Source: Acidimicrobiales bacterium (GTDB taxonomy: Bacteria; Actinomycetota; Acidimicrobiia; Acidimicrobiales; SKKL01). From it: a stretch of DNA of 40,914 nucleotides. The stretch is from contig SKKL01000138.1 of the NCBI GenBank assembly GCA_007121465.1, forward strand, positions 1 through 40,914, in the 5' to 3' direction. A program made the position numbers and the translations under genes. The notes under the pieces were generated by a model. It searched no databases. It was not told where the DNA came from and worked only from the letters and a program-made list of their open reading frames with translations. Positions 22,047 through 23,826 of the stretch are shown one piece after another; within the stretch, counting starts at the first letter, position 1, and each line of letters begins with the position of its first letter.

Positions 22047-22076
22047 TCCCGTCCCGGTCAGCCCACCGGGTCGGGA
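22047..22076. terminator. Bidirectional hairpin between transglutaminase and diiron genes
   Basis: TCCCG-t-CCCGGT-cagccc-ACCGGG-t-CGGGA gives 11 paired bases with one T.T mismatch. It overlaps the last codons of the convergent diiron gene. Confidence 0.55.
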
Positions 22077-23110
22077 TCGGCCAGGGAGTGGAACTCCTCG
22101 AGGATGTCGTGGCCATCGGGTCGCGTCCCGCACCAGTGCTCGACCTCGGCGAGCACACCGGCGCGGTTGGATGCACGGTTCGGCCCGAGCGACTGAGCGA
22201 GGGCGGCGTCCCACAGCCGGGAGATCATCTCGGTGCCGGGGTAGGTGCGCCCGGACTCACCCCGCCAGGCGCGGTCCCGCATCTCGGTGAGCGCCACCTG
22301 GAGATAGCCCACGTGTGGGGTCTCGTCGGCTCGGATGTAGGTCACGAGGCGTCCGGCTCCGCCGTCGCCGGCCACCAGGTCGGGGTCGGACAGCCACTGC
22401 TCGGCCCAGGCGAAGGTGTGGAACGCCGAGATCTCGATCAGCAGCACACGAATCATCAGACCGGCGATCTGCTCGATCTCGAGCGGGATGTCGTCGGGGA
22501 GCAACCGGGCGGGAGCCGCCTGGCCACCGCCGGTGGCAGCACCGAACCCGAGACGGGCCAGCATGGCGTCGATGTCGACCTCGGCGCTGCGTCCCTCGAA
22601 CGCGACGTCGCGAGCGGCGAACCACATGTCGCGGTGACCGGCCTCGACCTCCCATCCCGCCTCGTCGCGTCCGTGGGCCTCGAACAGACCCGAACCGAGG
22701 TGGGCGATGGCCGTGCCGTCGACGGAGTCGTCGAAGAACCGCTGGACGTCGGTCGGGGACAGGAGCCGGATGTTGGCCCCATAACCCTCGACCGTGCCGA
22801 TGCGGGTGAGCGTGGCGATGAGCGGTTCGGGCACCCCGTGGGCGATGAGGTGCCGCGCCTGGGCGACGTTGGGCATGTGGGGTGGCCAGGTGTCGAGCGG
22901 CACGTCGAGCAGCTCGGTGCCGAAGTGCTCGTGGTGCTGTTCGCGCCAGGCCTCGATGGCCGGGACCCGGTGGAGGGTGCGAGGCGAGACATAGGTGCCG
23001 TCGTCGCGGAATCCGCCGTGACAGCGAACGCCTCCCACGACGAGCGGCTCGGCCACCTCGTCGTCAGCCAAGAGCTCCTCGGCGCTGTAGTGGATCTGCG
23101 CGGTGGTCAT
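22058..23110 (-). CDS. Ferritin-like diiron protein of unknown function
   Basis: A 350-aa protein from ATG 23110, with a GAGAGGGG ribosome binding site. Two ExxH motifs are spaced as in ferritin-like diiron carboxylate proteins: E156-A-G-H159 (VEAGHRDMW) and E263-T-P-H266 (ADETPHVGYL). E226 (LLIEISAF) and E144 (GLFEAHGRDE) are candidate further ligands. This suggests an oxygen-activating diiron enzyme (oxygenase, desaturase or oxidase-like) rather than an iron store. I cannot name a family with confidence. Residues 191-205 form a Gly/Ala-rich linker. The gene is divergent from tetR, and its probable -10 (TACAGT) lies inside a perfect palindrome, so it is probably the regulator's main target. 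Confidence 0.7.
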   Translation of the reverse strand: MTTAQIHYSAEELLADDEVAEPLVVGGVRCHGGFRDDGTYVSPRTLHRVPAIEAWREQHHEHFGTELLDVPLDTWPPHMPNVAQARHLIAHGVPEPLIATLTRIGTVEGYGANIRLLSPTDVQRFFDDSVDGTAIAHLGSGLFEAHGRDEAGWEVEAGHRDMWFAARDVAFEGRSAEVDIDAMLARLGFGAATGGGQAAPARLLPDDIPLEIEQIAGLMIRVLLIEISAFHTFAWAEQWLSDPDLVAGDGGAGRLVTYIRADETPHVGYLQVALTEMRDRAWRGESGRTYPGTEMISRLWDAALAQSLGPNRASNRAGVLAEVEHWCGTRPDGHDILEEFHSLADPDPVG

Positions 23111-23143
23111 CGGTCCCCTCTCCCGGTCCCCATCGGGTTCTCC

Positions 23144-23179
23144 CCCGTGAGTCCCCCACTGTAAACTCACGGGTTTACA
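23144..23179. promoter_or_regulatory. Overlapping palindromes: probable TetR operator
   Basis: TGTAAAC-TCACGG-GTTTACA (23160-23179) is a perfect 7-bp-arm palindrome. It overlaps a second perfect inverted repeat, CCCGTGAGT-12 nt-ACTCACGGG (23144-23173, 9-bp arms). Both lie in the 98-bp gap between the diiron gene and tetR and cover the likely -10 of the diiron gene (TACAGT on the minus strand). Confidence 0.75.
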
Positions 23180-23208
23180 CCGGCAAGGGCTCTCGACGGG
23201 GAGGTTCG

Positions 23209-23826
23209 GTGAGCTCGCTCGACCACACGACCATCGAGGGACCGGACGAGGCGACCTCGCCACGTCGGCTGCTGTCGCGCGACGAACGTCGGGCGGCGAT
23301 CATCGACTGCGCCGCCGCCGCGTTCGTACGGGCCGGCTACACCGGCACCTCGATGGACGACGTGGCCCGGGCCTCGGGGGTCACCAAGCTCATCATCTAC
23401 CGCAACTTCGACTCGAAGGAGGCGGTCTACCGGGGTGTGCTCGAGGCCGTGTCGGGACGCCTCGCCGAGGTGTTCGCCGGCGAGATCGAGGCGGGACGCC
23501 GACCCGCGGGAGCGCGGGCGCTGCTCACCGTGGCCCGCGAAGACCCCGACGCCTTCGTGCTCCTCTGGCGTCACGCCGTGCGCGAACCGCGCTTCGCCGC
23601 CTACGCCGAGGAGTTCCGCGGGGCAGCAACGGCGATCACGCGCGAGCTCATCGACGACCAGGTGCAACCCGAGCTTCTCGATTGGGCGGCCCAGACCCTC
23701 GTCGATTGGAACGTCCAGGCCGTGCTGGCCTGGCTCACCCACGGTTCTCCCGAGGGAGACGAGGAGTTCATCGAACGGGCCCGGCGCACCGTGCGAGCCA
23801 TGTTGAGCGCTTGGGCCGAGTTCTGA
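23209..23826 (+). CDS. TetR family transcriptional regulator
   Basis: A 205-aa repressor-type protein. The TetR N-terminal helix-turn-helix is clear at residues 47-68 (TSMDDVARASGVTKLIIYRNF, followed by DSKEAVY). The ligand-binding C-terminal half is divergent, as usual. GTG 23209 is chosen for its GGGGAGG site 4-5 nt upstream; the 314-aa track ORF extends antisense into the diiron gene. It probably binds the palindromes in its own promoter and represses itself and the divergent diiron gene. The HAPMO-like monooxygenase lies downstream, behind a terminator and a different palindrome. The ligand is probably the pathway substrate or its CoA ester (inference). Confidence 0.9.
   Translation: MSSLDHTTIEGPDEATSPRRLLSRDERRAAIIDCAAAAFVRAGYTGTSMDDVARASGVTKLIIYRNFDSKEAVYRGVLEAVSGRLAEVFAGEIEAGRRPAGARALLTVAREDPDAFVLLWRHAVREPRFAAYAEEFRGAATAITRELIDDQVQPELLDWAAQTLVDWNVQAVLAWLTHGSPEGDEEFIERARRTVRAMLSAWAEF

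Follow-up and report, generated by a model that had tools for sequence, protein, structure and literature searches.

The 98 bases between a tetR gene and a divergently transcribed gene for a diiron-like protein contain a palindrome that is predicted, from its conservation among related genomes, to be the operator of a TetR-type repressor. Both genes lie in the stretch of Acidimicrobiales DNA analysed here (40,914 nucleotides, hereafter the window). The palindrome is very probably bound by the product of the adjacent tetR gene, which would repress its own transcription and that of the diiron gene until released by a ligand, a second inverted repeat overlapping it being coincidental. Judged from sequence comparison, the locus is an ordinary arrangement of a TetR autorepressor and a divergent gene sharing one conserved operator.

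The intergenic region extends from the start codon of the diiron gene (22058-23110, minus strand, 350 aa) to that of tetR (23209-23826, plus strand, 205 aa), which is most probably the GTG at 23209, preceded by GGGGAGG. As described in the initial annotation, it holds two perfect inverted repeats: an inner one, TGTAAAC (23160-23166) and GTTTACA (23173-23179) with a spacer of 6, and an outer one with 9 bp arms, CCCGTGAGT (23144-23152) and ACTCACGGG (23165-23173), with a spacer of 12, their spans overlapping at 23160-23173. The inner repeat forms the perfect 20 bp core (23160-23179) of the candidate operator, CTGTAAACTCACGGGTTTACAC (23159-23180).

The TetR protein has an N-terminal helix-turn-helix (Pfam PF00440, TetR_N, 45.3 bits against a cut-off of 24, E = 7e-12), and its AlphaFold model (pLDDT 94.8) is an all-helical fold with a C-terminal ligand domain. 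Its best match in the PDB by both sequence (E ~1e-26) and fold (TM ~0.7) is FasR of M. tuberculosis, although the two are only ~25% identical. FasR controls fatty-acid synthesis genes and is an activator, and this kinship therefore counts against the repressor reading. Neither Pfam nor NCBIfam contained a profile significantly matching the diiron-like protein, although it has conserved relatives throughout many families of the order. Its assignment as a diiron (ferritin-like) protein is considered likely, rather than proven, given this lack of a profile match, the seven residues E108, E144, H146, H159, E226, E263 and H266 that are invariant in 29 orthologues, the helical model (pLDDT 91.4), and the weak PDB matches of that model (E ~0.5) to AurF and R2-like (ligand-binding) oxidases.

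Orthologues for comparison were taken from a search of related genomes, a scan of genome contigs having turned up remote relatives only; the orthologues of TetR (44-65% identity) come from many families of the order, and those of the diiron-like protein share 50-76% identity with it. In the promoter regions of the 59 diiron loci having upstream sequence, a site was called where at least 12 of the 16 fixed positions of GTGTAWAC-6-GTWTACAC were matched. A site is present in the divergent promoter region, as would be anticipated for a TetR-family regulator, in 22 of the 23 loci with a related divergent tetR, against 3 of the 36 in which no related tetR was found, a group where its absence is not always certain because some loci lie on short contigs (Fisher p = 5e-12). 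The 22 include one locus, L053, that really has a variant with a spacer of 8, and L102 is a tetR/diiron locus without a clear operator; among site-bearing loci where no related tetR was found, L083 sits at a contig end and L062 fits a motif of the paralogue type discussed below. The consensus is GTGTAWACTCnnnnGTWTACAC. Both the operator and the diiron -10 are kept across many families of the order, which bears out the earlier proposal that the inner repeat is a TetR-size operator lying over the diiron -10 (TACAGT).

A weight matrix built without the window scores the window's site at 32.3 bits, the training sites spanning 17-36, and the second-highest score in the 40.9 kb window is 8.4 bits. 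The exact pattern occurs once in the genome; allowing two mismatches adds a single further site, GTGTAGAC-6-GTCTACAC, upstream of a paralogous tetR. Scanning 18 related genomes revealed the motif in 16, sitting at the tetR locus in most, while controls with the reversed pattern were almost all zero.

Shuffle and tile frequencies likewise mark the inner repeat as special and the outer one as not. Dinucleotide shuffling of the intergenic sequence yields a repeat with 7 bp arms and a spacer of 6 in ~1% of cases, but no example among 5000 shuffles had five or more A/T in each arm; of the 11 such 7-6-7 repeats in the window, which is 69% G+C, the inner repeat alone has arms this rich in A/T. By contrast, repeats with arms of at least 9 bp and a spacer of 3-20 are at chance level: they turn up in 1.8% of the shuffles, and when the window is cut into 98-base tiles, 2.8% of these include one. 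The window has 14 in total.

The promoters surrounding the operator can be delimited through the alignment of orthologous loci. On the diiron side, the putative -10 (TACAGT, 23158-23163, minus strand), which falls within the left operator half-site, is TACACT, TACAGT or TACACC in 18 of 20 aligned promoters; the putative -35 (TTGCCG, 23181-23186, minus strand) is 17 nt upstream, and most of the aligned loci have TTGnnn at a spacing of 17 or 18. Hence the operator overlaps a conserved pattern, TTGnnn-N17/18-TACASY, from which the transcript is predicted to start at ~23149-23151 on the minus strand. In six orthologues (L050, L064, L065, L072, L079 and L084) 6-8 nt separate the end of the -10 from the diiron start codon, a geometry suggesting leaderless mRNAs, which supports the assignment of this element; such a layout is known from mycobacteria (PMC4633059). 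The probable tetR -10 (TAAACT, 23162-23167, plus strand) overlaps that of the diiron promoter by 2 bp; it corresponds to TAWACT in most loci, and position 9 of the operator is T in 15 of 21. The predicted tetR transcript start is at ~23174-23177 on the plus strand. The tetR -10 call is weaker, as the aligned orthologues share no conserved -35 on the tetR side. A generic sigma-70 scan found no site above threshold, since its consensus is that of E. coli, to which TACAGT and TTGCCG are a weak match.

The regulation proposed is that a TetR dimer would bind the 20 bp palindrome beside its own gene. With the operator overlapping the -10 elements of two divergent promoters, and these elements sharing two bases, a single bound dimer would cover both and keep RNA polymerase from transcribing either the diiron gene or tetR itself, until a small-molecule ligand released the protein.

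The outer repeat behaves differently from the operator. It is absent from the orthologous loci compared, including that of the same genus, and is unique in its own genome. Its right arm consists of the operator spacer and three flanking bases, and this spacer is mostly variable among orthologues; a 9 nt arm complementary to it is found at 9/9 only in the window, with the same-genus orthologue matching at 5/9 and the best matches elsewhere not exceeding 6/9, save for L064, which has 8/9 at a different spacing. Being at chance level and unconserved, with one arm merely lying on the variable operator spacer, it looks like a coincidence, leaving a slight possibility of some function specific to this lineage. 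The earlier suggestion that it might be a second operator does not agree with the matrix score at its centre, -59.6 compared with 32.3 at the operator, nor with its lack of half-sites. A switch between two operators or two states of the region, also raised in the initial annotation, was rejected as a candidate and is not supported, because the two repeats are not both conserved and the outer one does not resemble the operator. Lack of conservation in orthologous loci, which the initial annotation named as refuting its reading, was observed for the outer repeat but not for the inner one.

It is nevertheless conceivable, albeit unlikely, that the outer repeat is a lineage-specific site, bound by another regulator or by a second TetR dimer and so providing cooperative or competitive control. 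Its arms are perfect and it has no second copy in the genome, its dyad is 11 bp, or about one helical turn, from that of the operator, and its probability in a region of 98 bases is P ~0.02-0.03; yet the window holds 14 repeats of equal or greater size, and the poor operator score and the unconserved spacer arm argue against a site of this kind. More speculative still is the idea that a recently arisen, genome-specific repeat pairs the operator spacer with the upstream arm, as a cruciform or a second protein site, and tunes the choice between the promoters with overlapping -10 elements; this is very improbable.

A comparably slight chance attaches to a different regulator, and not the adjacent TetR, binding the conserved palindrome. 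The pairing of protein and palindrome is itself predicted, but the motif tracks this tetR subfamily at the significance given above, and it is present in G016, where the tetR gene has no diiron gene beside it. Furthermore, the paralogous tetR of the same genome has its own related but shifted operator. Shifted operators of this GTGTAGAC type accompany the paralogous tetR in both the window's own genome (L042, G000:C200:12433-12454) and the same-genus genome (L043), and similar palindromes, of the GTGTAGAC/CTGTAG type, lie upstream of diiron genes in G002 and G100 (L062 and L068). A different palindrome, GTGTAAGCGTATACGCTTACAC, with a near copy, was observed at G017:C41:6702-6723 and G001:C2:1600-1621, and is possibly the site of another regulator.

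Least probable of all is that the outer repeat, as the initial annotation also considered, folds into a hairpin in the leader RNA of the diiron gene, where it would serve as an attenuator or stability element: a transcript spanning both arms could form the 9 bp stem, which appears in the minus-strand centroid fold, but by the promoter geometry neither transcript would hold both, as the arm at 23165-23173 is upstream of the predicted diiron start and the entire repeat is upstream of that predicted for tetR, while several orthologues appear leaderless, the predicted folds do not stand out (z = -1.2 and -1.6) and an Rfam search of the region gave no match.

Beyond the tetR locus, the motif was found at three other places in the 18 relatives (G017:C34, G070:C106 and G010:C3), each preceding a gene for a luciferase-like monooxygenase (PF00296), with an alpha/beta hydrolase gene diverging on the other side of the motif at two of the three. 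The extra operator copies upstream of luciferase-like monooxygenases are at L123 3129-3150, L124 3009-3030 and L125 2966-2987. In at least six relatives (G001, G048, G049, G092, G096 and G211), the next gene after the diiron gene, in the same orientation and 8-85 bases beyond the aligned diiron region, encodes a close homologue of this monooxygenase, suggesting that the two form an operon there, and in G016 tetR faces a luciferase-like monooxygenase gene instead of the diiron gene. No homologue was detected at E <= 1e-60 in the window's genome, the assembly of which is 91% complete; where relatives have the monooxygenase, the diiron gene of the window faces a convergent transglutaminase-like gene (22058 and leftward).

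The arrangement resembles divergent pairs of the tetR/tetA type (PMC3511530, PMC4482099) in having a TetR gene divergent to an enzyme gene, here 98 bp away, and a palindromic operator over the promoters; it differs in having one operator rather than two, and a diiron-like oxygenase rather than a pump as the target. TetR regulators of Streptomyces act as repressors of a divergent neighbour when the gap between the two is less than 200 bp (PMC3511530). EthR of Mycobacterium is similarly divergent to an oxygenase gene, that of the monooxygenase EthA, but its motif is larger and outside the classical palindrome form (PMC4482099), unlike the classical 20-22 bp palindrome found here, and EthA is a flavin monooxygenase, whereas the target here is diiron-like. 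A literature search found nothing relevant on the operator sequence or on this gene set.

Comparison with relatives can thus dismiss one of two perfect, overlapping repeats. It also yields a testable operator consensus for a TetR subfamily that occurs in numerous families of this order, and a small candidate regulon comprising the diiron-like oxygenase, the luciferase-like monooxygenase and, probably, the alpha/beta hydrolase.
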